64,000 nt of DNA from Halohasta litchfieldiae (GCF_002788215.1 NZ_CP024845.1:1798001-1862000), one strand, 5' to 3'; shown: positions 40,944-53,074, numbered from the stretch's first letter. Made by a program: numbers and translations. The notes: generated by a model not told the origin, from the sequence alone.

Positions 40944-42071
40944 CTATATTTTCACCCACTCGCCTCGTTCGTCGGCGCGTTCGATCCCGTCGAGGACCGT
41001 CTGGACGTCGAGGGCGTCCTGGAACGACGGCGAGAAGTTCGACTGATCGGCGACCGCCGAGAGGAACTCGTCGTTTTCGTGGACGAAACTGTGTTCCCAG
41101 CCGATGGTGTGGCCCGGCGGCCACCAGTGGTCGACGTAGGGGTCGGTTTCGTCGGTGACGAGGACGGTTTCGTACCCCCGGTTGTCACCGGTTAGGACTT
41201 CGAGTTCGTTGAGCCGTTCTAAGGAGAACTTCAGGCTGCCCGCCGAGCCGTGGATCTCGATGGTGTGGTCGTTCTTGTGGCCGGTGGCGAACCGCGAAGC
41301 CTCGAAGCTGCCGACCGCGCCGGTTTCGAACTCGGCTTGAGCGGTGTAGGCGTCGTCGACGGTCACTGGTCGGTACTCCTCGATAGCTCCCGCGTCGTCG
41401 TACACTGGGCGTTCGTCGACAAACGTTTCGAGGTGCCCTGAGACGCGTTCGATTCCCCCTACCTGGTCGCCGACGAGGAAGCGCGCGAGGTCGACGGTGT
41501 GGGCTCCGAGATCGCCGAGCGCGCCGGAGCCGGCGAGATCGGCATCCATCCGCCAGGCCCACTCGGCCTCGGGGTCGACGAGCCAGTCTTGGAGGTACCG
41601 TCCCCGGACATGGCGGATCTCGCCGAGCTCGCCCGACTCGATCAGCCGCTTGGCGTACTGGATCGCGGGCAAAAACCGGTAGTTGAACGCACAGCCTGCC
41701 GGCACGTCGGCATCGGCCGCGGCGGCGGCCATCGCTTCGGCGGCCTCCAGCGTCGGTGCAAGTGGTTTCTCACAGAGCACCGCGGTGCCAGCTTCGAGGG
41801 CCGCAATCGAGGGCTCGGCGTGGAGGTGGTTCGGGCCGAGATTGTAGAACACGTCGACTTCCTCAATCACGTCTTCCCAGTCGGTCGCCGTGTGGGCGAA
41901 GCCGAACTGATCGGCGGCCTCGGCGAGGGCATCCTCGTTGCGACCAATGAGCGTGTGGCGTTCGATCTCGGGAGCCTCGGGGAAAAACATCGGCAGGCGA
42001 GCAAGCGCGTTCGAGTGGGCTCTGCCCATAAACCGGTAGCCGAGCATCCCGATTTTCAGTGGTTCGGACAT
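40944..42071 (-). CDS. Gfo/Idh/MocA family dehydrogenase 1
   Basis: A 375-residue NAD(P)-dependent sugar oxidoreductase. N-terminus KIGMLGYRFMGRAHSNAL is the nucleotide-binding fold, CEKPLAPTLEAAEAM (about residues 94-108) holds the EKP motif, and WRMDADLAGSGALGDLGAHTVDL (about 167-189) is the usual catalytic region with GDLGAH. The gene follows the TIM-barrel gene by three bases (same operon) in the sugar locus. The substrate is probably a sugar or inositol derivative, perhaps a disaccharide or its 3-keto form; not provable here. Confidence 0.88.
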   Translation of the reverse strand: MSEPLKIGMLGYRFMGRAHSNALARLPMFFPEAPEIERHTLIGRNEDALAEAADQFGFAHTATDWEDVIEEVDVFYNLGPNHLHAEPSIAALEAGTAVLCEKPLAPTLEAAEAMAAAAADADVPAGCAFNYRFLPAIQYAKRLIESGELGEIRHVRGRYLQDWLVDPEAEWAWRMDADLAGSGALGDLGAHTVDLARFLVGDQVGGIERVSGHLETFVDERPVYDDAGAIEEYRPVTVDDAYTAQAEFETGAVGSFEASRFATGHKNDHTIEIHGSAGSLKFSLERLNELEVLTGDNRGYETVLVTDETDPYVDHWWPPGHTIGWEHSFVHENDEFLSAVADQSNFSPSFQDALDVQTVLDGIERADERGEWVKI

Positions 42072-42074
42072 GGA

Positions 42075-43043
42075 TTACTCCGCCCAGTAGGCATCACCGG
42101 GTGTGGTTTCGAACATGGCCCGCGAGAGGACGTCGACGGCCTTTTCGAGGCCCTCTTTCGAGGTGGTTAGCGAGTCCTCGTGTTCGATAGAGAGTGCGCC
42201 CTCGTAGCCGACCATCCGGAGCGTCGAGACGACGTCCTTCCAGTGACCCTCGCCGTGCCCGTAGCCGATCGAGCGGAACAGCCACGAGCGATTGGCCTCG
42301 TCGGTGTAGTCGGTGGTATCGAGGACGCCCTTCTCGCGGGCCTGTGGCTCGTAGATCTTGGTGTCTTTGGCGTGGAAATGGTGGATCGCATCCTCGTCGC
42401 CAAGGAGCCGGATCGCGTCAGTGACACTGATTCCCTGCCAGTAGAGATGGGAGGGATCGAAGTTGGCACCGATACGCCCGTTTGTCAGCTCGCGGAGTTT
42501 GAGCATCCCGTGAGGTTCGTAGACCAACATATTGGGGTGCATCTCGATAGCGATGTCGACGCCCTGCTCGTCGGCGAACTCGGCGAGTTCGGTCCAGTAG
42601 TTTTCGGCAACGGTCCACTGGTAGTCGTGAGCATCAGCGTGTTCGACCGGCCACGGGGCTGTAACCCAATTTGGGACCTCGTCGTTCGGCCCGCCCGCCG
42701 GGAGGCCCGAAAAGCAGGTGACCGTATTCACGTCGAGCTGGGCGGCCAGCTCGATGGCTTCCCGAAGTTCGGTATCGGCCTCCGCAGCGCGCTCCTCGTC
42801 GGGATGCAGCGGGTTGTTGTGGGTCGCCAACGCGCTAATCGAGAGGTCGTGTTCGTCGAGCAGGTCGAGCAGTTCGGCCTGTGCCTCGGCGTTGTCGAGG
42901 GTGGCCGTCCGGTCGACGTGGTCGTCGCCGGGATAGCCGCCGACGCCGAGTTCGACGCAGTCGACGCCGATCTCGGCGAGATACTCGAAGGTCTCTTCAC
43001 GGGACTGATTACCAAAGGGGACTGTTAGTACACCAAGCTCCAT
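42075..43043 (-). CDS. TIM-barrel sugar isomerase/epimerase
   Basis: A 322-residue protein of the xylose-isomerase-like TIM-barrel family: MELGVLTVPFGNQSREETFEYLAEIGVDCVELG at the start, EMHPNMLVYEPHGMLKLREL (metal-binding E and H), NFDPSHLYWQG, HHFHAKDTKIYEP and the late SIEHEDSLTTSKEGLEKAV. Members isomerise or epimerise keto-sugars or act as 2-keto-myo-inositol dehydratase. It is first in an operon with a Gfo/Idh dehydrogenase. A half-operator TACAACA sits at 43056-43062. Confidence 0.85.
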   Translation of the reverse strand: MELGVLTVPFGNQSREETFEYLAEIGVDCVELGVGGYPGDDHVDRTATLDNAEAQAELLDLLDEHDLSISALATHNNPLHPDEERAAEADTELREAIELAAQLDVNTVTCFSGLPAGGPNDEVPNWVTAPWPVEHADAHDYQWTVAENYWTELAEFADEQGVDIAIEMHPNMLVYEPHGMLKLRELTNGRIGANFDPSHLYWQGISVTDAIRLLGDEDAIHHFHAKDTKIYEPQAREKGVLDTTDYTDEANRSWLFRSIGYGHGEGHWKDVVSTLRMVGYEGALSIEHEDSLTTSKEGLEKAVDVLSRAMFETTPGDAYWAE

Positions 43044-43178
43044 ACACAAATCAACTACAACACCCCGAATAAATGTTTATGAAAGACTTATAGGATGTAT
43101 GAAATATGTGTGTGCTGTGTATCCGTCAGCAAGGAGCCCGGTGGTCGAATAGCGTCAGTACCTCAGCAGTGGGTCTCC

Positions 43179-44273
43179 TTATTTAGGTGAGAGGGCTGGG
43201 ACGGAGTCGGTGTTCAGCGAGACGGCCTCGCCCTGTTCGGACGACCGGTAGATGGCGTCGATGACACGCTGGACGGCGAGTCCCTCGTCGACCGTGTTGC
43301 GCTCGGGTGGGGTTCCCGCCGCGACGTGGTCGAGGAAGTAGCCTACTTCGGCTTTGTGGGTGTCGCTGTTTTGGGTCTGGATCTCGGCGTCAGTCAGATG
43401 GTCGCGTCCGGCCTTACTGCCCTCGTGAATCGTGAGTTCGTGGCTCGCGCGGTCGAACGTGGCTCCGGCTTCGGTACCCCGAAGTACGAACTCGTCGTTG
43501 GTCGGCCGGTTGACCGCCCAGGCGACATCCAGCGAGATCGTCTGGCCTGCCTCGGTCCGAATAAACGCGCTGACCGAGTCGTCGACGTCGAACCCCTCGG
43601 GGCCGATGTCTTCGCCCCACATCTCGACGTAGGCGTAATCCTCGCGGGTCCCGAACTGCGAGCGCGTCGTCCCCGAGACCTCGCTGATCGTTGGGAAATC
43701 GAGGAAGTGGAGCGCGAGATCGATGGCGTGGACGCCGATATCGATCAGCGAGCCGCCACCGGCGACCTCCTTCGAGGTGAACCACGAACCGCGGCCAGGG
43801 ATGCCGCGTCGACGGACGTAGTTGGCCTCGATGTGCGAGAAGTCGCCGAACCGACCCTCGTTTTGGTACTCTTTGACTACCTCAACTGGGGCCGAAAATC
43901 GGTTGTTGAAGCCGACCATGCAGAATCCCTCGGCGGCGTGGGCCGCCTCGACGATTCGCTCGGCGCTTTCGAGGGTGTGGGCGAGCGGCTTTTCCAACAG
44001 CACGTCGCAGCCGGCTTCGAGCGCGGCGACTGCGTACTGCTCATGGAACCGGTTCGGCGTGGTGATGAGCACTGCGTCAGCGGTCTTCAGCAGCTCGGCG
44101 TCGTCTTCGTACGTCGATACATCATACTTTTCGCGGAAGTTCTTGCGGGCCTCGCCGTTGATGTCGACGCCGCCGACAAGCTCCGCTTCTTGATCTTCAA
44201 GTCGGTCCGCGTGGTGGTGTCCGATCCCACCGAGACCGACGATTCCTACCTGTACTGGTGTGTTTGTCGTCAT
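43179..44273 (-). CDS. Gfo/Idh/MocA family dehydrogenase 2
   Basis: A 364-residue NAD(P)-dependent oxidoreductase: VQVGIVGLGGIGHHHADRL, LEKPLAHTLESAERI (EKP motif, about residues 92-106), GGGSLIDIGVHAIDLALH (about 176-193) with the catalytic-type histidine. The frame is open to 44345; the ATG at 44273 (MTTNTPVQVG) is chosen. An operator-like TACTACGGGTGTTGTTA lies 12-27 bases before that start. It lies between the ABC ATPase and the isomerase operon, with gaps large enough for its own promoter. Confidence 0.88.
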   Translation of the reverse strand: MTTNTPVQVGIVGLGGIGHHHADRLEDQEAELVGGVDINGEARKNFREKYDVSTYEDDAELLKTADAVLITTPNRFHEQYAVAALEAGCDVLLEKPLAHTLESAERIVEAAHAAEGFCMVGFNNRFSAPVEVVKEYQNEGRFGDFSHIEANYVRRRGIPGRGSWFTSKEVAGGGSLIDIGVHAIDLALHFLDFPTISEVSGTTRSQFGTREDYAYVEMWGEDIGPEGFDVDDSVSAFIRTEAGQTISLDVAWAVNRPTNDEFVLRGTEAGATFDRASHELTIHEGSKAGRDHLTDAEIQTQNSDTHKAEVGYFLDHVAAGTPPERNTVDEGLAVQRVIDAIYRSSEQGEAVSLNTDSVPALSPK

Positions 44274-44283
44274 TAGAATGTAT

Positions 44284-44301
44284 TTACTACGGGTGTTGTT
44301 A
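44284..44301. promoter_or_regulatory. Operator copy upstream of dehydrogenase 2
   Basis: TTACTACGGGTGTTGTTA matches the full palindrome GTACAACAGGTGTTGTAC at 13 of 18 positions. It lies close to the start of the dehydrogenase gene, so it overlaps its core promoter or 5' leader. See the two other copies at 49103 and 50634. Confidence 0.5.
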
Positions 44302-44362
44302 AGATTCACGTTACCGTGATTGTCAGTGACGGTACCCAAAGTCACCTGTCGAGAGGCTCCGA

Positions 44363-45541
44363 TCAGTCGTCGGTGCTGGGCTCGGCCTCCGATTCCGAGG
44401 CTACCGCTGGATCGGCAATTCCGTGGGAGATCGCCGTTCCCGACGCCGTATCGAAGAGGTGGACCTTACTTCGGTCCAAGACGACCTCCAGCTGTTCGTC
44501 CTCGCCGAGTGTGCTGTCGGGGTCCGTACTCATCAACAGCTGATCGTTGGCCTGTGCGGTATCCATCGAGGTTTCGGCAGCCTCGCTGAGGAGGAGGTAA
44601 ATGAATATCTCGTCGCCCATCGGTTCGAGCACATCGGTCGTGACAGGCATCGCTACTGTCGGATCCGCGAGCGTGTGAGCCTTGCTCGATTCGTAGACAT
44701 CCTCCGGTCGGATACCGAGTGTGATCGACGACCCTACCGTGACGCCGACAGTCGACGGGTCGAAGTCGACAGTGACGTATTCGGACTCGAAGCCGTTGTC
44801 CGTAATCGTCCCTTCGATGAAGTTCATCGACGGCGAGCCAATGAAGCCAGCAACGAACAGGTTTGCGGGTTCGTTGTAACAGACCAACGGTGGGTCGATC
44901 TGCTGGAGTTTGCCGGCGTTGATGACCGCAATCCGGTCGGACATCGTCATCGCCTCGGCCTGATCGTGGGTGACGTAGATGATCGTCGTATCCAGCTCCT
45001 TGTGGAGTCGCTGGAGTTCGGTTCGCATGTGGACACGTAGCTTGGCATCGAGGTTCGCCAGTGGCTCGTCCATCAGGAAGACGTCCGGGTTACGGACAAT
45101 CGCCCGTGCGATGGCGACCCGCTGTCGCTGTCCGCCCGACATTTCCTCGGGCATCCGATCTTGCATGTTTTCGAGCTGGACGATGTCGGCAGCGCGGTCG
45201 ACCCGGCGCTGAATCTCCTCGTCGTCGTATTTGCGGAGCCGGAGGCCGAAACTGATGTTGTCGAAGACGTCCATGTGAGGGAACAGCGCGATGTTCTGAA
45301 ACACCATCGAGATCCCACGGTCCTTCGGCGGGAGGTTCGTGACGTCACGGCCGCTGATGCTGATCGTCCCCTCGGTTGGTTTCGTCAGTCCAGCGATGGT
45401 CTCCATCGTGGTCGACTTGCCACACCCCGAGGGACCGACAAAGGTGACGAACTCGCCGTCCTTGATGTCGAGGTTCATGTCGTCGACTGCCGTTACATCA
45501 TCGTACCGCTTTGTCATGTGTTCGAGTTTAACGTTTCCCAT
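44363..45541 (-). CDS. Sugar ABC transporter ATP-binding protein
   Basis: The 392-residue ATPase of a MalK/UgpC-type importer. It shows Walker A GPSGCGKST (about residues 36-44), Q-loop, signature MSGGQRQRVAIARAI (about 134-148), Walker B VFLMDEPLANLDA, the H-loop VTHDQAEAMTMSDRIAV and a C-terminal TOBE domain of about 130 residues. The start at 45541 (MGNVKLEHMTK) is chosen from a longer frame. It lies four bases after the second permease, in the sugar-import operon. Confidence 0.93.
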   Translation of the reverse strand: MGNVKLEHMTKRYDDVTAVDDMNLDIKDGEFVTFVGPSGCGKSTTMETIAGLTKPTEGTISISGRDVTNLPPKDRGISMVFQNIALFPHMDVFDNISFGLRLRKYDDEEIQRRVDRAADIVQLENMQDRMPEEMSGGQRQRVAIARAIVRNPDVFLMDEPLANLDAKLRVHMRTELQRLHKELDTTIIYVTHDQAEAMTMSDRIAVINAGKLQQIDPPLVCYNEPANLFVAGFIGSPSMNFIEGTITDNGFESEYVTVDFDPSTVGVTVGSSITLGIRPEDVYESSKAHTLADPTVAMPVTTDVLEPMGDEIFIYLLLSEAAETSMDTAQANDQLLMSTDPDSTLGEDEQLEVVLDRSKVHLFDTASGTAISHGIADPAVASESEAEPSTDD

Positions 45542-45545
45542 TGGA

Positions 45546-46559
45546 TTACTCCTTGAGTGCTCCCGCGGTGAGCCCGCTGACGATTTTTTCCTGTGCGACG
45601 ACAACCAGTATGGCAACTGGTAGCACGCCGACGATACTCGCTGCGGCCATCACGTTGAACAGCACCTCGTATTGGCCCTGATACTGCAGAATCCCGTCGA
45701 CGATGGGGGCCCAGTTGTCGGCGCTGCCGTCGGTCATGAGGAACGAGAAGAAGAACTCGTTGTAGACCGCGATGAACGTCAGCACGCCCGCCGTTGCGAC
45801 GCCGGGGGCCGACAGTGGCATAATCACACGGAACAGCGCGCCGAGCCGTGTGGTGCCTTCGATCCGGGCGGCGTCTTCGAGCCCATCGGGGATCTGACTG
45901 TAGAACGTCGTGAGGATGAAGATCGACAGCGGCATGAAGATTGCACTGAACGGGACGACCATCGCGTACGGCGTGTTGTAGAGGCTGCCGTCGGCCAAGA
46001 TTGGCCGCAAGATGTCTATGTTCGTGTTGAACAGATCGTTCAGCGGGATGAAGAACGCCGCTGGCGGGAAGAACGACACGATCAACACGAGCAGCATGAG
46101 CGGTCCCTTACCGGGGAACCGCAGTCGACCGAAGACGTAGCCCGCGAGGCTGGCGACGATGATGACGACAATCGTCGTCACCGTCGCGATCACGAAGCTG
46201 TTGAACATGTAGCGGTGGAACGGAATGATCGTAAACACCTCAAGGAAGACGCCGGGATTGGTCCCCATCGTGAGATCACCCTGCGCAAGCAGCGAGGGGT
46301 CGAAGCCAGAGGGGACAAGCCCGACGTCCTGGAGATTACGACGTGGCGTCAGTGCCACCATGAACAGCCAGTAGAACGGGAACAGCGTTGTGACGAGGAA
46401 GAAGATCGTCGCTGTGTAGAACAACGCTTTGTACGTCCGCTTTGGGTTTTTGATCGTTTTCGCGGCCCAAGCTTCGAACAGCCCGCGGTCGATCTCCGGT
46501 TCCTCGCTGTCGTCGTCGTTGGTGTAGACCTTTTGTCCGTCTGTTTGTTCGAGAGACAT
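45546..46559 (-). CDS. Sugar ABC transporter permease (MalG type)
   Basis: A 337-residue inner-membrane permease with six membrane segments and the coupling motif EAARIEGTTRLGALFRVIMPLSAPGVATA (about residues 225-253), the EAA loop that contacts the ATPase. It pairs with the MalF-type permease just upstream, overlapping by one base. Acts with the binding protein and ATPase to import a carbohydrate. Confidence 0.93.
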   Translation of the reverse strand: MSLEQTDGQKVYTNDDDSEEPEIDRGLFEAWAAKTIKNPKRTYKALFYTATIFFLVTTLFPFYWLFMVALTPRRNLQDVGLVPSGFDPSLLAQGDLTMGTNPGVFLEVFTIIPFHRYMFNSFVIATVTTIVVIIVASLAGYVFGRLRFPGKGPLMLLVLIVSFFPPAAFFIPLNDLFNTNIDILRPILADGSLYNTPYAMVVPFSAIFMPLSIFILTTFYSQIPDGLEDAARIEGTTRLGALFRVIMPLSAPGVATAGVLTFIAVYNEFFFSFLMTDGSADNWAPIVDGILQYQGQYEVLFNVMAAASIVGVLPVAILVVVAQEKIVSGLTAGALKE

Positions 46560-47587
46560 TACATGAACCCTCCTTCTGAGTCACGGAATTTCGCGAGGTA
46601 GACGGCGATGAAGACGCCGATTAGCGCTGCGGTGAGGAAGGCAACTGCAGCGGCCGTCCCGTAGATCCGGGTGCCGCCGAACAGGCCATCGATCACCAGA
46701 CAGGTCATCGATGGGACGGTCGAACAGCTCGCCGTCGACTCGATGATGCCGTAGACGCGCATGGCGTCCATCGTCCGGAACAGCATGGCGACGATCAGTG
46801 CTGGCATCACGATTGGCAGGGTAATCAGCTTGAATCGCTGCCACGGGGTCGCCCCCGAGACTTTGGCCACGTCGTAGAGGCTGCGGTCGACGCTCTGGAG
46901 CCCTGCGAGGATCAACAGCGCCATGAACGCCGAGGTTTTCCAGATGTCGGCGACGAGCACGATGATGAACGAATCACGGCTCGATGCCAGTGGGTTGTCG
47001 CCGAACAGGCCGATCGACTGCATGATCTCGCTGCCGAAGCCGACGGTCGGCTGGAACATGAGGAAGAACAGCATCCCCTGAATGACGATTGGAATCGCCC
47101 ACGGGAGGATGATGGCGACACGGACCCAGCGGCGGCCCTCGAACTCTTGGTTGAGGACCATCGCCTGACCGAAGCCGATGATTGTTTCGAACAGGACGCT
47201 CAGTATTGCAAACGCGAGCGTGACGAACAGTGCTTGCCTGAAAAACGGGGTCCCGAGTTCGAGAAACGGGAAGTCGGATGTGAGTGCAACGTCGATTACC
47301 TGTCGGCTGAGTCGCGTATCCCCAGTGAAGACGTCGATGTAGTTTTCCAGCCCGACGAACCCGCCGAGTGGCTCTGCACCACGGGTTTCGTCGGCCAGCA
47401 ACGACATCCGTAACGTCGACAAGAGGGGATAGAACGCGACCAATGCCAACAGGAGGAAGCCGGGAATCAACAGCAGGTAGGCGTAGGCGGCCTCACTGAG
47501 GTTTTCCATCCAGGTAAGGAAACCACTGAAAACGCCACCGCTGTCGGCCCCGGTCTCGGCCGGTGAGTTGGTGTGGTCGGTTGCCAT
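46559..47587 (-). CDS. Sugar ABC transporter permease (MalF type)
   Basis: A 342-residue permease with about six membrane segments (AYAYLLLIPGFLLLALVAFYPLL first) and an EAA loop (YDVAKVSGATPWQRFKLITLPIVMPALIVA, about residues 238-267). It follows the binding-protein gene by 30 bases and overlaps the next permease by one base. Its extra N-terminal acidic region of 20 residues is halophile-like. Confidence 0.93.
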   Translation of the reverse strand: MATDHTNSPAETGADSGGVFSGFLTWMENLSEAAYAYLLLIPGFLLLALVAFYPLLSTLRMSLLADETRGAEPLGGFVGLENYIDVFTGDTRLSRQVIDVALTSDFPFLELGTPFFRQALFVTLAFAILSVLFETIIGFGQAMVLNQEFEGRRWVRVAIILPWAIPIVIQGMLFFLMFQPTVGFGSEIMQSIGLFGDNPLASSRDSFIIVLVADIWKTSAFMALLILAGLQSVDRSLYDVAKVSGATPWQRFKLITLPIVMPALIVAMLFRTMDAMRVYGIIESTASCSTVPSMTCLVIDGLFGGTRIYGTAAAVAFLTAALIGVFIAVYLAKFRDSEGGFM

Positions 47588-47617
47588 GCTAATAAGGAAT
47601 TGTGAGTTGGTGGGTGG

Positions 47618-49057
47618 TTATCTGGTGTCGCTCTCTTCGAGTTCGGTTGCGAGGGTGCTCATTGCCTCCTCGGGCGTCTTCGTCTGGGTGTAGGCGTCGT
47701 GGACCTCCTGGTAGACCAGTGCCGACTGGTTCGGCCACAGGTCGGTCACGGGGCGTGGCACGGCCGTATCGGCCACGTACTGCAGCGTGTCGACGTAGCG
47801 GCCGATTGGGCCGACATCGTCTTCGGTAACGCCGTCGAGAACGCCCGGAATCGGCGGGAGGTTGCCGGCGGTCTCGAAGACCGTCAGCATGACCTCGTCG
47901 GAGGTCCACGCTTCGAGGACCTGTACTGCGTCTTCGGTCTTCTGTGAGTTGGGGTTCATCGTCAGATGCCAGCCACCGAGGGCTGCGCGGCTGCCACCGA
48001 GGCCGTCGTACTTCGATTCGCTTTCGGGGACACCGTACGGAAGCGGCATCACGTCGAAGTCGGTTCCGAAGGCTTCGACGTTGTTGGTGATCGCGTATGG
48101 CCAGTTGCGGTGGAACGCCGCGTTGCCGGAGGTAAACGGTCCGCGAGCGTCCTCTTCGGTCCACTGGACGATCGAGCTCGGAGCGATCTGTTCGTACCCC
48201 TCTGCGGCCTCCGGATCATCGCTGCCGTACATGAACGCACGCATCATGCGAATCGTCTCGATGACTGGTTCTTCCTCGACAGTTACGGGTCGCTCGCCAA
48301 CCGGGCCGAAGAGGTTGTCGACGCCACCGAAGTACGCACCGCCGAAACTCGACATCGTCTCGTTGAACGTACAACAGGCCAGTCCCTCGTAGGCGGCTGC
48401 CTGCGTCGTAAAGCCGTACTCAACGCCGCTTTGATCCCGAACATCAGCGGCAACCTGCGAGAACTCCTGCCAAGACATTGGCGTGGTCGCCCAGTTGTTA
48501 CCATCCGGGTTGTAGCCCGCGGCTTCGGCGAGGTCTTTCCGGTAGTGCATAACCGGGTAATCCGGGAAGATCGGCACGCCGTAGAGGTCTCCGGACATAG
48601 GGCTTTCGGCGGTCGCAACCGATGCCGAAAGGTAGTCGTTGCGGATGCGGTCGAGCACGTCGCTCGACAGCTGCTCTTCGAGATTTACGAGCTGCTCGCG
48701 CACGATGAACGGAATCGTCCACCCGCTGTCCATCATGAACAGGTCCGGCGACGACCGGCCAGCGTTGAGCGCCGAGCTGTAGGTCTGTCGACGGCTGTCG
48801 GTCTGGAAGTCTTCCTGAACGATCTCGACTTCGATGTCGGTGTCGAGACCAGAGTTTCGAAGTGCGCTGATGATCTCGTCGGACGCGTCGGCCATCACCG
48901 AGTCAGCCGAGACGACGACGGCGTCGCTGCCGCCGTTGCCGCCGGTGCAGCCAGCCAAACTAGTCGAGATTCCTGCCGCACTTGCTGCCTGTACGAATCG
49001 TCGACGGGAGACACCAGCGTTTGCCAGACCGTTTTCGTTTGAGTATTCCTTACCCAT
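47618..49057 (-). CDS. Sugar ABC transporter substrate-binding lipoprotein
   Basis: A 479-residue extracellular binding protein. It has a Tat signal (VSRRRFVQAASAAG) and a lipobox ending LAGC (C37), so it is exported folded and lipid-anchored. The mature part has the two-lobed fold of family 1 carbohydrate-binding proteins (DLFMMDSGWTIPF, GLACCTFNETMSSFGGAYFG). It is the first gene of the importer operon. On the minus strand a TATA-like TTATATATAATA is near 49080-49091, and the operator at 49103 is just upstream of that. The sugar is inferred as sucrose or a similar disaccharide from the downstream GH68 gene. Confidence 0.92.
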   Translation of the reverse strand: MGKEYSNENGLANAGVSRRRFVQAASAAGISTSLAGCTGGNGGSDAVVVSADSVMADASDEIISALRNSGLDTDIEVEIVQEDFQTDSRRQTYSSALNAGRSSPDLFMMDSGWTIPFIVREQLVNLEEQLSSDVLDRIRNDYLSASVATAESPMSGDLYGVPIFPDYPVMHYRKDLAEAAGYNPDGNNWATTPMSWQEFSQVAADVRDQSGVEYGFTTQAAAYEGLACCTFNETMSSFGGAYFGGVDNLFGPVGERPVTVEEEPVIETIRMMRAFMYGSDDPEAAEGYEQIAPSSIVQWTEEDARGPFTSGNAAFHRNWPYAITNNVEAFGTDFDVMPLPYGVPESESKYDGLGGSRAALGGWHLTMNPNSQKTEDAVQVLEAWTSDEVMLTVFETAGNLPPIPGVLDGVTEDDVGPIGRYVDTLQYVADTAVPRPVTDLWPNQSALVYQEVHDAYTQTKTPEEAMSTLATELEESDTR

Positions 49058-49102
49058 AGGAAAGAATATGATGGTTATTATTATATATAACTATGGGATC
49101 GG

Positions 49103-49120
49103 GTACAACAGGTGTAGTTA
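49103..49120. promoter_or_regulatory. Operator copy upstream of the importer operon
   Basis: GTACAACAGGTGTAGTTA matches the full palindrome GTACAACAGGTGTTGTAC at 15 of 18 positions. It lies about a dozen bases upstream of the TATA box of the binding-protein gene, an activator-type position. Confidence 0.6.
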
Positions 49121-49293
49121 ACAAATAGTGACCACATAGTTCACGATAAAAACCGCCGACAGCGAAGGGGCACGACGCTGTCGACAGCCGTCAAATCGGG
49201 CCGAACAACCCGTGATAAGTATTACTCAGCAGTAATGAACATTCGATTCAGGCAGCTCAGAACGAAGGCCACGGGGCGTGACCTCGAGGCGGT

Positions 49294-50379
49294 TCACGGT
49301 TGCTTTTCGGCCCGTTCAACCGTGATCTGTATTGCTTCGATCTCTTCGATCATCGCGCCCCAGCCGCCGACCGTGTACGTGCCATCATCCGTTTCGAGGG
49401 TGAATGAGGCTTCCCCTGCGAGGTGGGACAACGATGTTAGATACGTTTCGTCTTGGGTTTGCCCAGCGTAGGTGACATCAGTAACGGTTCCACGAAGCGA
49501 AATTTCGTGGCCGGTCACAGTCTCGATACCGTTGACAGAGACATCGATCTGCATGCCGTCTTCAAACAACGGGACGATTGTTCGCAGACAGTGGCGAATA
49601 TCGACATACGAGATGGGAAGCTCCTCGTTGCGTGCCGAATAGATACTCTCGTAGCCCTCCCAGAGGTTCGTCAAAAAGTACCAGTAAAACACGTACGTAT
49701 GTGTCATATCGTTGACTATCACGCCGTACTCGTTGGTCGACCGTCCGTGTGGCGAAAAGCAGGTCCACGACCGGTCGATCAATGCAATAAACGGCGACGG
49801 TGCCGACCGGGTTCGGACTTCGGTCGCGGTCCGCGAGAAGGAGTCGGTCGATGGAAGCTCCATCTCTCGGTCGAGCGAGGGGACGAGACACACCTTCACG
49901 TCGGCACCACGGTCGAGCGCACACTCGAGGGCATCCTCCAGTTCGTAATACTGGTCGATTGTGAGACCCACGTTGACCTGTGTCTCGGCGTTGCGAATCA
50001 ACTGCTCGGCCTGTGCCAACACCGTATCGAGTCGCTTGACAATGCTTACTCGGTGTTCGTCGATATCCGGCCGGTCCCACCGGTCTTCGATCTCTTCGGC
50101 CGCCGTCTCGAAGCGGTTGGCTCGTTGCCGGAGATCAGCAAGCACGTCGGCTGGGTCGTGGGCCCGAGCGTGTAAGCTGTCCTGTTGATAGGTCTCGATA
50201 TACTCCGCCTCTTCGAGCCCACGGAGTACATCGTAAATTCTCGCATCAGGGACGGAACTGGCCTTGGCGATTTGAGTCGCTGATGCCGATCCGAGACCGA
50301 GCAACGTCACGAAGGCGTCGGCCTGATACGGTGACAACCCGGCATCCTCCAGCGTCTCGATAAGCTCCTCACCGTTCAT
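49294..50379 (-). CDS. TrmB-like sugar transcriptional regulator
   Basis: A 361-residue regulator of the TrmB family: winged helix at the N-terminus (GLSPYQADAFVTLLGLGSASATQIAKASSVPDARIYDVLRGLEEAEYIET), a coiled linker (LADLRQRANRFETAAEEIED), and a C-terminal sugar-binding part with a PLD-like region (about residues 110-355). TrmB proteins in haloarchaea bind sugar signals and control sugar transport and glycolysis genes. It is transcribed towards the importer operon, in the same direction, and divergently from the kinase/GH68 genes. It is the natural candidate to bind the palindromic operator. Confidence 0.88.
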   Translation of the reverse strand: MNGEELIETLEDAGLSPYQADAFVTLLGLGSASATQIAKASSVPDARIYDVLRGLEEAEYIETYQQDSLHARAHDPADVLADLRQRANRFETAAEEIEDRWDRPDIDEHRVSIVKRLDTVLAQAEQLIRNAETQVNVGLTIDQYYELEDALECALDRGADVKVCLVPSLDREMELPSTDSFSRTATEVRTRSAPSPFIALIDRSWTCFSPHGRSTNEYGVIVNDMTHTYVFYWYFLTNLWEGYESIYSARNEELPISYVDIRHCLRTIVPLFEDGMQIDVSVNGIETVTGHEISLRGTVTDVTYAGQTQDETYLTSLSHLAGEASFTLETDDGTYTVGGWGAMIEEIEAIQITVERAEKQP

Positions 50380-50487
50380 ACCGCACCGTTAGGGCTCGCA
50401 TCCGTCGAATAATCAATCATCTATGTGATCGTAATACAGCCATTACAAAAATGTTGCCTTCAGCGTACTGTCCGCGTTTTAATTCCA

Positions 50488-50549
50488 GATGGTCGACAGT
50501 ACGTGATTTCGGATGGTCGACAGTACGTGATTCCGGATGGTCGACAGTC
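50488..50549. repeat. 24-bp tandem repeat in the regulatory gap
   Basis: Two and a half copies of GATGGTCGACAGTACGTGAT-TTCG/TCCG: unit 1 at 50488-50511, unit 2 at 50512-50535 (one base different), and a partial third from 50536. It lies between the divergent TrmB-like and kinase genes and may be a multi-site operator or a replication-slippage repeat. Confidence 0.75.
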
Positions 50550-50633
50550 TAGGTCCGGATTCGACCGTGACTCTGACTAGTCACCGTACCGCGGATACCG
50601 GGCAGATCTCGGCCCCGATCTCTCGATTCTAAG

Positions 50634-50651
50634 GTACAACAGGTGTTGTAC
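50634..50651. promoter_or_regulatory. Full palindromic operator of the kinase/GH68 operon
   Basis: GTACAACA-GG-TGTTGTAC is a perfect 8-bp inverted repeat with a two-base centre. It ends about 10 bases before a TATA-like ATTTATTAT (50662-50670). A variant sits in the same geometry upstream of the importer operon (49103), and another before dehydrogenase 2 (44284). Confidence 0.65.
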
Positions 50652-50686
50652 TATCTTCAAAATTTATTATCTACCACCATATATCC

Positions 50687-50806
50687 ATGAGTGTAACGGA
50701 ACCCAAAATGACAGAGACCAACCCACTACACGACCGGAAACCAAAACCAGGCGAGCGTCTTCGACCGCGTGAACAGCATCCCACGGACAGATGGAACGAT
50801 GTCTGA
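50687..50806 (+). CDS. 39-residue ORF ahead of the carbohydrate kinase
   Basis: An ATG at 50687 begins a frame (MSVTEPKMTETNPLHDRKPK and so on, ending PTDRWNDV) that stops at 50804-50806 just inside the kinase start (ATGTCTGA). The ATG lies about 21 bases after the TATA-like element, so it may be the first codon of a leaderless mRNA. It is charged, rich in Pro/Arg/Lys, with no known domain. It may be a leader peptide of the sucrose operon or a chance frame. Confidence 0.4.
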   Translation: MSVTEPKMTETNPLHDRKPKPGERLRPREQHPTDRWNDV

Positions 50807-51752
50807 GCCGTCGGTCTTAGTCGCTGGCGAAGCGCTCATCGATTTTATTCCCGATACTCCAGGATCGCTGGCCGGGGTTGAAACGTTCCACCGGCGGGCT
50901 GGTGGTGCCCCCGCCAATGTCGCCGTCGGGCTCGCCCGGCTCAACGAAACGCCGTGGCTGTGTACGACGCTGTCGACCGATCCCTTTGGCGAGTTTCTGG
51001 CCGACCGGCTCGACGCCGAAGGGCTGCCCGAGCGGTTCGTCACGCGCGTCAAAAACGCGACGGCACTGGCATTCGTCAGCCACGGCGAGACGGGCGACCG
51101 GGAGTTTAGCTTCCATCGCGAGCGGACTGCCGACACCGTCCTGCAGACCGACGTGGTCGACACCGCGACGCTGGCGGCGGTCGACTGGCTGGTTGTCGGT
51201 GGCGTGACGCTGTCGGCCGAGCCGTCCCGTTCGGCGACCTTCGAGCTTGTCGAGCGAGCCCAAGAGGCGGGCTGTCGGATCGTCTTCGATCCCAACACCC
51301 GGCCGGAGCTGTGGGCCGAATCCGACGACATGACGCTGACGCTCGAACGAATGCTGCGGCGGACCGACGTGCTCAAAGCGACCCGCGAGGACTTCGAGCC
51401 GACCGCAATCGACGCCAGCAGCGACGGCTTCGCCGACCGACTGCTTGAAAAGGGTCCCGAGATCGTCCTGCTCACAGAAGGGACGGCGGGCGCACGGGCA
51501 GTCGCCGACGGCGACTCGGCGTGGGGGCAAGGCGAGTGGCATCATTCGGGCTACGAGATCGACGCCGTCGACACCACCGGCGCTGGCGATGCGTTTCTTG
51601 CGGGTGCGGTCGCGGCCCTCACAGAGGAGGCCGACCCGACCGAGACGCTCGCGTTCGCCAACGCCGTCGCCGCCCTTGCGACGACCGAGGGCGGGGCGAT
51701 GGCCGCGCTGCCGGATCGGTCGGCCGTCGACCAGTTGATGGAGGATCGATGA
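50799..51752 (+). CDS. PfkB-family carbohydrate kinase (fructokinase-like)
   Basis: A 317-residue ribokinase-type sugar kinase: VLVAGEALIDFIPDTPGS start, HRRAGGAPANVAVGLARL (about residues 30-47), LSTDPFGEFLADRL, and the ATP/catalytic signature VDTTGAGDAFLAGAVAAL (about 251-268) with Asp as base. Such kinases phosphorylate fructose or related sugars. The stop overlaps the GH68 start (ATGA). With GH68 it can take sucrose to glucose plus fructose phosphate. The ATG at 50799 (MSEPSVL) is chosen over 50769. Confidence 0.93.
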   Translation: MSEPSVLVAGEALIDFIPDTPGSLAGVETFHRRAGGAPANVAVGLARLNETPWLCTTLSTDPFGEFLADRLDAEGLPERFVTRVKNATALAFVSHGETGDREFSFHRERTADTVLQTDVVDTATLAAVDWLVVGGVTLSAEPSRSATFELVERAQEAGCRIVFDPNTRPELWAESDDMTLTLERMLRRTDVLKATREDFEPTAIDASSDGFADRLLEKGPEIVLLTEGTAGARAVADGDSAWGQGEWHHSGYEIDAVDTTGAGDAFLAGAVAALTEEADPTETLAFANAVAALATTEGGAMAALPDRSAVDQLMEDR

Positions 51753-53074
51753 GAGAAACGAGCGCCGACCGGGAGTGGACTCGGTGGAGCCGCGAAGCGG
51801 CCGACCGGATCGAGCGAACCGACGGGACGGTCGCACCTCCGGCCGGACTACCGGAGAGCGATCCGGCACCCGATCTCCACGTCTGGGATACATGGCCGCT
51901 CCGCACTCGGAGCGGCGAGATCGCCACCGTCGACGGCTGGCAGGTGCTGATCTCGCTGACGGCCCCGGCCGACGTGACGCCCGGCGAGCGCCACGACATC
52001 GCCGAACACCGGTATTTCGTCTCCCGCGACGGTCGGGAGTGGACCGACCGCGGCCCCGTCTTCGGCGACGACGCCCTCGGCACCCGGCAGTGGGCCGGGT
52101 CGGCGCTGTACGACGACGGCGAGCTGTATTTCTTTTATACGGCCGCGGGCGACGCCGACAGCGAGGACCTGACCTACACCCAGCGGCTCGCCGTGGGTTA
52201 CGGCGGAACCCTTGAGACGGTCGACGGCGAGCTCACCATCGAAGGGCCATGGAGCCACGAGGTCCTCCTTGAGGCGGACGACGAGTGGTACGAGACACAG
52301 GCCCAGTCCGGCGAGATGACCTACACGTTCCGCGATCCGTGGTTCTTCGAGGACCCCGAGACCGGCCGGACACACCTCCTTTTCGAGTCGAACACGCCAC
52401 CGGCGGCCGACGACTGCGGTGGTGACGCCGACCAGCAGGCGTTTAACGGGTGTGTCGGCCTCGCGGTCTCGCCGTCGGGCGATCCCCTCGACTGGGAGTT
52501 CCGCCCGCCGATCTTCGACAGCGTCTGTGTGAACCAGGAGATCGAACGCCCCCACGTCGTGGTCCATGAGGGTCGCTACTACCTATTCGTCTCCAGCCAC
52601 GTCGACACCTTCGCGCCGGGGCTCTCGGGGTACGACGCCCTCTACGGGTTCGTTGCCGACTCGCTGGGCGGCGAGTATCGGCCGCTAAACGAGTCAGGAC
52701 TGGTCGTGACGAACCCGGCGAGCGCACCGTTTCAGGCCTACTCGTGGCTGGCGGTCGACCACGGCGAGGAACTGCTCGTGAGTGGGTTTTGCAACTATCC
52801 CGAGTTCGACGGGGTCGCGATCGGCGAGCTCGCGGCGCTGTCGGGCGAGGAGCAACGTCAGCGTTTTGCGGGCACGTTGACCCCGACGCTCCGAGTGGCC
52901 GTCGACGGCGAGCAGACGCGGATTCAGGGAACGCTCGGCCATTGGGCGTTCCCGAGCGAGGGCGAGACGTTGCCGCCGGTCGACGACGGGTGGAGTCTTC
53001 CGGCAAAAGAACTCAACCCCGAGCCGGGGCTGACCCAGACGGCATCGCGGCGGGACGAGGGCCCCTTCTGGTAG
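51749..53074 (+). CDS. GH68 sucrose-cleaving enzyme (levansucrase/invertase type), intracellular
   Basis: A 441-residue five-bladed beta-propeller glycoside hydrolase family 68 protein. The catalytic residues are visible: nucleophile D47 in HVWDTWPL, stabiliser D196 in TFRDPWFF, and acid/base E266 in NQEIERPHVV. It has no signal peptide, unlike most bacterial levansucrases, so it should act in the cytoplasm on imported sucrose. The gene overlaps the kinase by four bases. It probably hydrolyses sucrose rather than building levan, but transfer activity cannot be excluded. Confidence 0.9.
   Translation: MRETSADREWTRWSREAADRIERTDGTVAPPAGLPESDPAPDLHVWDTWPLRTRSGEIATVDGWQVLISLTAPADVTPGERHDIAEHRYFVSRDGREWTDRGPVFGDDALGTRQWAGSALYDDGELYFFYTAAGDADSEDLTYTQRLAVGYGGTLETVDGELTIEGPWSHEVLLEADDEWYETQAQSGEMTYTFRDPWFFEDPETGRTHLLFESNTPPAADDCGGDADQQAFNGCVGLAVSPSGDPLDWEFRPPIFDSVCVNQEIERPHVVVHEGRYYLFVSSHVDTFAPGLSGYDALYGFVADSLGGEYRPLNESGLVVTNPASAPFQAYSWLAVDHGEELLVSGFCNYPEFDGVAIGELAALSGEEQRQRFAGTLTPTLRVAVDGEQTRIQGTLGHWAFPSEGETLPPVDDGWSLPAKELNPEPGLTQTASRRDEGPFW

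Follow-up and report, generated by a model that had tools for sequence, protein, structure and literature searches.

A conserved palindrome in a haloarchaeal sugar-uptake locus as the probable operator of the neighbouring TrmB-family regulator

The locus analysed here combines a TrmB-family regulator gene with a sugar ABC transporter and several sugar-metabolism genes, and raises the question of whether one palindromic operator ties these genes into a regulon and, if so, which protein reads it. Coordinates refer to the window, the 64 kb stretch of DNA that was analysed as a whole. Its relevant features are:

40944..42071, minus strand: Gfo/Idh/MocA oxidoreductase (Gfo2)
42075..43043, minus strand: xylose-isomerase-like TIM barrel protein (AP2)
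43055..43072, minus strand: possible degenerate operator (weak; a single good half-site), 11 nt upstream of the AP2-type gene's ATG at 43043
43179..44273, minus strand: Gfo/Idh/MocA oxidoreductase (Gfo1)
44284..44301, minus strand: predicted operator 3, repressor-type position, its end 10 nt from the Gfo1 ATG at 44273
44363..45541, minus strand: ABC ATPase (MalK type)
45546..46559, minus strand: ABC permease
46559..47587, minus strand: ABC permease
47618..49057, minus strand: sugar ABC transporter solute-binding protein
49083..49090, minus strand: TATA box of the transporter operon, TTATATAT
49103..49120, minus strand: predicted operator 2, activator position, ~12 bp upstream of the TATA box in the transporter-operon promoter
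49294..50379, minus strand: TrmB-family regulator (PF01978 and PF11495), likely binder
50634..50651, plus strand: predicted operator 1, palindrome, activator position, ~12 bp upstream of the TATA box in the promoter that serves leader ORF, pfkB and GH68 as one operon
50664..50670, plus strand: TATA box, TTATTAT
50687..50806, plus strand: 39-aa leader ORF overlapping the pfkB start codon
50799..51752, plus strand: PfkB-family sugar kinase, start codon read from the sequence
51749..53074, plus strand: GH68 levansucrase/invertase-like glycosidase

The GH68 and PfkB genes indicate that the substrate is probably sucrose. We take the Gfo/Idh-AP2-Gfo/Idh set (40944-44273) beside a disaccharide transporter to resemble a 3-keto-sugar route; this set is kept together with the transporter in many genomes. 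The leader ORF, which begins ~35 nt past operator 1, runs with its stop codon into the pfkB start region. At the corresponding place a congener (L055) has a 19-aa leader ORF, so the leader peptide may be coupled to pfkB translation. A tandem repeat (50482-50548) with 2.8 copies of a 24-bp unit, ATTCCGGATGGTCGACAGTACGTG, separates trmB from operator 1.

The original prediction held that the palindrome GTACAACAGGTGTTGTAC, at 50634-50651, recurs at two further places in the locus, and the recurrences matched: 49103-49120 agrees with it at 15 of 18 positions (3 mismatches) and 44284-44301, which reads TTACTACGGGTGTTGTTA, at 13 of 18. Shuffled windows contained on average 0.02 matches and never reached three. 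Scored with a profile trained on 34 sequences from other genomes (window, Natronococcus-like and seed loci excluded; the training sites were originally located with a first profile that contained the window seeds), the three sites rank 1-3 in the 64 kb window, with 25.14 bits for 44284 and 25.12 and 24.84 bits for the other two. With the same profile the next-best window position scored 10.1 bits, and the best score in 60 shuffled windows was 9.6 bits on average and 16.6 at maximum. A half-site that had also been claimed, at 43056, fared less well: the stretch at 43055-43072 scored 4.1 bits with the other-species profile (rank 19 in the window), which alone is not above chance. Its position approximates that of operator 3 and is similar to that of the full sites of loci L137-L139.

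Genome-wide counts were obtained by IUPAC pattern searches. The family consensus WACWAYNNNNRTWGTW has four matches in the 3.33 Mb genome, three of which are the window sites, inside 6.4 kb, which supports the claim that one operator ties the locus together; its reversed control likewise has four matches genome-wide (their places were not listed). Because this consensus was derived in part from the window sites themselves, more weight falls on the clustering and on the other-species profile. The fourth match (L076) falls within an ORF for a membrane protein and was taken as chance, as were a one-mismatch match at C1:1118399 (L002) and a two-mismatch match at C1:1111761 (L005), both with nearby genes that are not sugar-like by reading. 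The whole-genome search with the strict consensus yielded no further regulatory-looking site. A looser motif (16 bp, ≤3 mismatches) gave 72 genome matches versus 129 for its reversed control, so only strong sites are meaningful. The regulon seems to be local in this genome and scattered in Haloarcula-like genomes.

The operator is conserved beside trmB in dozens of haloarchaeal loci. An orthologous trmB adjoins the same transporter genes in Natronococcus, Halobaculum, Halobellus and genomes of the families coded f1, f3, f4, f7 and f8, and most of these loci have the palindrome in the interval that separates trmB from the gene for the solute-binding protein. The position of operator 2 is shared with 30+ loci of other genomes, and that of operator 1 with a congener (L055). 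Of 35 distinct promoters, 27 have a best TATA match that begins 11-13 nt downstream of the operator, and the start codon, in promoters where it is readable, usually lies 40-47 nt past it. The sites at 49103 and 50634 share the operator-TATA geometry of this majority class and lie directly upstream of BRE/TATA, as activator-type sites do, in line with the prediction that two sites stand about 10-15 bases upstream of a TATA box (~12 bp in both). The site at 44284 does not. It belongs to a second, start-codon-proximal class, in which the operator lies 4-12 nt before the start codon, as at gfo2 in 7 f4 loci and at AP2 in 3 f3 loci. There is no space for a TATA box between operator 3 and the Gfo1 ATG, and the position of this site suggests repression.

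At 19 other loci the 260 nt preceding trmB contain a palindrome as well, which is what autoregulation would predict; in many f4 loci these operators directly follow a T-rich stretch. Haloarcula-like genomes carry unlinked palindromes ~37-46 nt before GH13 alpha-glucosidase, GH68 and Usp genes and one immediately before an AP2 gene, labels that were read from translations and not from a family search. Most guaB-linked TrmB orthologues have no palindrome near trmB, the exception being the L027/L037/L038/L040 group. In Halorubrum-type sucrose loci (L058-L062, L074) the divergent trmB and GH68 genes flank another palindrome, TACCACGGCYGTGATA or similar, and these loci were excluded from the profile. 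A search of papers available without subscription found none on this operator at a sugar-uptake locus.

We compared the palindrome with known TrmB sites. It had been suggested that it may be a new site type, which the comparison does not sustain. TAC and GTA stand 10 bp apart, as in the TACT-N7-GAGTA frame, exactly so in 50634; 49103 and 44284 keep the TAC-N10-GTA frame except that one side has GTT in place of GTA, and the other-species profile retains A3 C4 and G15 T16. The GA before the closing GTA (the GAGTA half) is absent, the inner bases of the window sites being (A/T)AC-N4-GT(A/T). Both kinds of half are joined in Haloarcula-like genomes, where the gapII promoter has a conserved GTACAACTATGTGAGTTA (and close variants) and the fbp promoter a conserved TCACTCGAAATGTAGTAA, each combining a present-type half with a GAGT-type half; the half-site TACAAC itself occurs in the gapII-promoter site. 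Both promoters are TrmB ChIP peaks in Har. hispanica, and the expression of both genes falls on trmB deletion (PMC10817205). Since these hybrid sites stand at ChIP-bound, TrmB-activated genes, one TrmB probably reads both half kinds. The Haloarcula-like gapII and fbp sites join two different halves whereas the window sites join two like halves, a comparison made by reading the promoters and not from a published logo. Judged by its sequence, the palindrome is a symmetric, conserved form of the operator already known for haloarchaeal TrmB. As for the classical form, this genome's gapII retains TTACTCGGCGCAGAGTTA: the perfect TACTC-N6-GAGTTA at G000:C1:669579-669596 (L211, L173), before a type II GAPDH gene, is a classical TrmB gluconeogenic site that has been kept.

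Other archaeal regulators offer further points of comparison. The TACT-N7/8-GAGTA motif of Halobacterium salinarum TrmB (VNG1451C) has the TAC-N10-GTA frame in common with the window sites, but it has T...GA where these have inner AC-N4-GT, and its regulon is global whereas the window sugar regulon is local. The Pyrococcus furiosus TrmB site at malE, TACT-N3-AGTA, also lies beside a sugar ABC transporter and has TAC...GTA outer halves, although these are 5 bp apart versus 10 here and the site overlaps BRE/TATA and represses. TATCAC-N5-GTGATA, the Thermococcales glycolytic motif of TrmBL1/Tgr, is unlike the window palindrome in sequence.

The TrmB encoded at 49294-50379 scored 50.8 bits with PF01978 and 180.6 bits with PF11495, both above the cut-off. 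The Tyr-Asp pair that contacts DNA in TrmB (Y49/50-D50/51; PMC4158304) is present as Y49-D50, invariant in 12 aligned homologues, and so is the whole segment R47-I48-Y49-D50-V51-L52-R53, a region that differs in this genome's two other TrmB paralogues. G339 and E345 are likewise invariant in the 12 homologues and, compared by spacing, have the same interval of six as the sugar-binding G320 and E326 of Thermococcus litoralis TrmB, which makes them candidates for the same role. In the tree, the window TrmB falls inside the f4 (Natrialbaceae-containing) clade, within a larger clade that includes the Haloarcula-like TrmB; this genome's other two two-domain paralogues fall outside that larger clade. 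In a Haloarcula-like genome (G199) the order is trmB, ABC transporter, Gfo1 and glucose dehydrogenase, with a second TrmB ~10 kb off, an arrangement that agrees with what has been published for HAH_1548 and HAH_1557 (PMC10817205). Synteny (trmB, ABC transporter, glucose dehydrogenase, trmB3) and the tree together identify the window protein as the orthologue of Haloarcula hispanica TrmB (HAH_1548), which has been studied by ChIP-seq (PMC10817205). Three congeners carry a distinct TrmB lineage, and PfkB and GH68 are 87-90% identical to those of a congener (G043). Taken with the placement in the f4 clade, this suggests that trmB was horizontally replaced.

As had been predicted, this TrmB is the best candidate binder, a judgement from its conserved linkage, the sites before trmB in other loci and parallel occurrence. 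Genomes of f4 with a close TrmB have a mean of 2.17 palindrome matches (reversed control 1.26), and those without have 0.80 (reversed control 0.76). The forward counts of the two sets differ at P = 1e-7, and the reversed-control counts also differ slightly (P = 0.10), both uncorrected for relatedness. The main counter-evidence is that the published targets of the Haloarcula orthologue are gluconeogenic and other genes, with no ABC transporter or sucrase promoter named among its 15 ChIP peaks (PMC10817205). Either the symmetric sites were empty in the ChIP medium or they are bound by another TrmB, and this holds our confidence below 0.8. We put the probability at roughly 0.76 that the palindromes are operators of the TrmB at 49294-50379, activating at two promoters, blocking at Gfo1 and responding to sugar. 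Very likely they belong to a genuine control circuit whose sites are a variant of the known TrmB site.

From the computed sites, their conservation, their positions and their linkage to trmB, we infer binding, the direction of control and the inducer as follows. A TrmB dimer would bind TAC(A/T)AC-N4-GT(A/T)GTA. At the transporter and leader-pfkB-GH68 promoters, TrmB bound ~12 bp before the TATA box would help to recruit basal factors and so activate transcription. At Gfo1 the operator would occupy the TATA/start-site place of a leaderless transcript, so that bound TrmB blocks transcription; alternatively, the operator there may function within an operon that is transcribed by read-through. Binding of sugar to the C-terminal domain would alter how TrmB binds DNA and, if this TrmB behaves as in Haloarcula, glucose would release it, leaving disaccharide uptake and cleavage on when glucose is absent. 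The direction of control is drawn by analogy from the rule that binding upstream of BRE/TATA activates and binding downstream represses, described for TrmBL1, Tgr and the Halobacterium TrmB (PMC4158304). Haloarcula hispanica TrmB likewise has its sites upstream of TATA at activated genes (PMC10817205).

A variant of this reading keeps TrmB as the binder and contests only the direction of control: all sites would repress, since TrmB just upstream of TATA could hinder TFB/TBP, and sugar would induce by releasing it, as for Pyrococcus TrmB at malE. This would give a catabolic locus a simple induction logic, the Pyrococcus TrmB operator does overlap BRE/TATA (PMC4158304), and the motifs of TrmB-repressed Haloarcula genes overlap BRE. 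We consider it unlikely, because the great majority of promoters keep 11-13 nt between the operator and TATA and the gapII and fbp sites, which are also upstream of TATA, belong to TrmB-activated genes.

A second alternative concerns the binder. The palindromes could be read by a TrmB3-type paralogue (L077, C1:2469612), with the neighbouring TrmB mainly serving gluconeogenic TACTC-N6-GAGTA sites such as the one retained before gapII in this genome (C1:669579). A TrmB3-like gene was present in 30 of 30 genomes tested, which leaves no TrmB3-free genome to argue from; it lies near the transporter in some genomes, flanking the same transporter in Haloarcula-like ones, and the ChIP list for the TrmB orthologue, which holds no transporter or sucrase peak (PMC10817205), would fit this assignment. 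Yet TrmB3 is unlinked to the locus in most genomes and no palindrome was found near TrmB3 genes, whereas trmB stands beside the palindrome and has sites in its own upstream region. The f4 palindrome excess also tracks TrmB, and the existence of hybrid sites implies recognition of both kinds of half by TrmB. We regard binding by TrmB3 as quite improbable. That the palindromes are chance occurrences or functionless leftovers, for which one could cite the lack of enrichment of loose motif versions in the genome, is hardly credible and already contradicted by their top three ranks with an independent profile, the clustering of three of the four strict matches in 6.4 kb and the way both site and spacing have been preserved across dozens of loci.

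Reading the palindromes as TrmB operators allows a broader, tentative proposal, which is less likely than not to hold: haloarchaeal TrmB would read two half-sites, TACTC and TAC(A/T)AC, in one TAC-N10-GTA frame, with symmetric TACAAC sites marking a disaccharide uptake and cleavage branch and GAGTA-type and hybrid sites a gluconeogenic branch. Within the sugar branch, site position would then set the outcome for the same bound protein, with transport activated and Gfo/AP2 and trmB repressed. The finding would provide a precise operator for the TrmB clade that holds the best studied haloarchaeal TrmB, and predicts a sugar-uptake branch of the regulon beyond the published ChIP-seq list. It also offers natural paired sites, in activator and repressor positions and with symmetric and hybrid halves, with which direction switching by one archaeal regulator may be probed.
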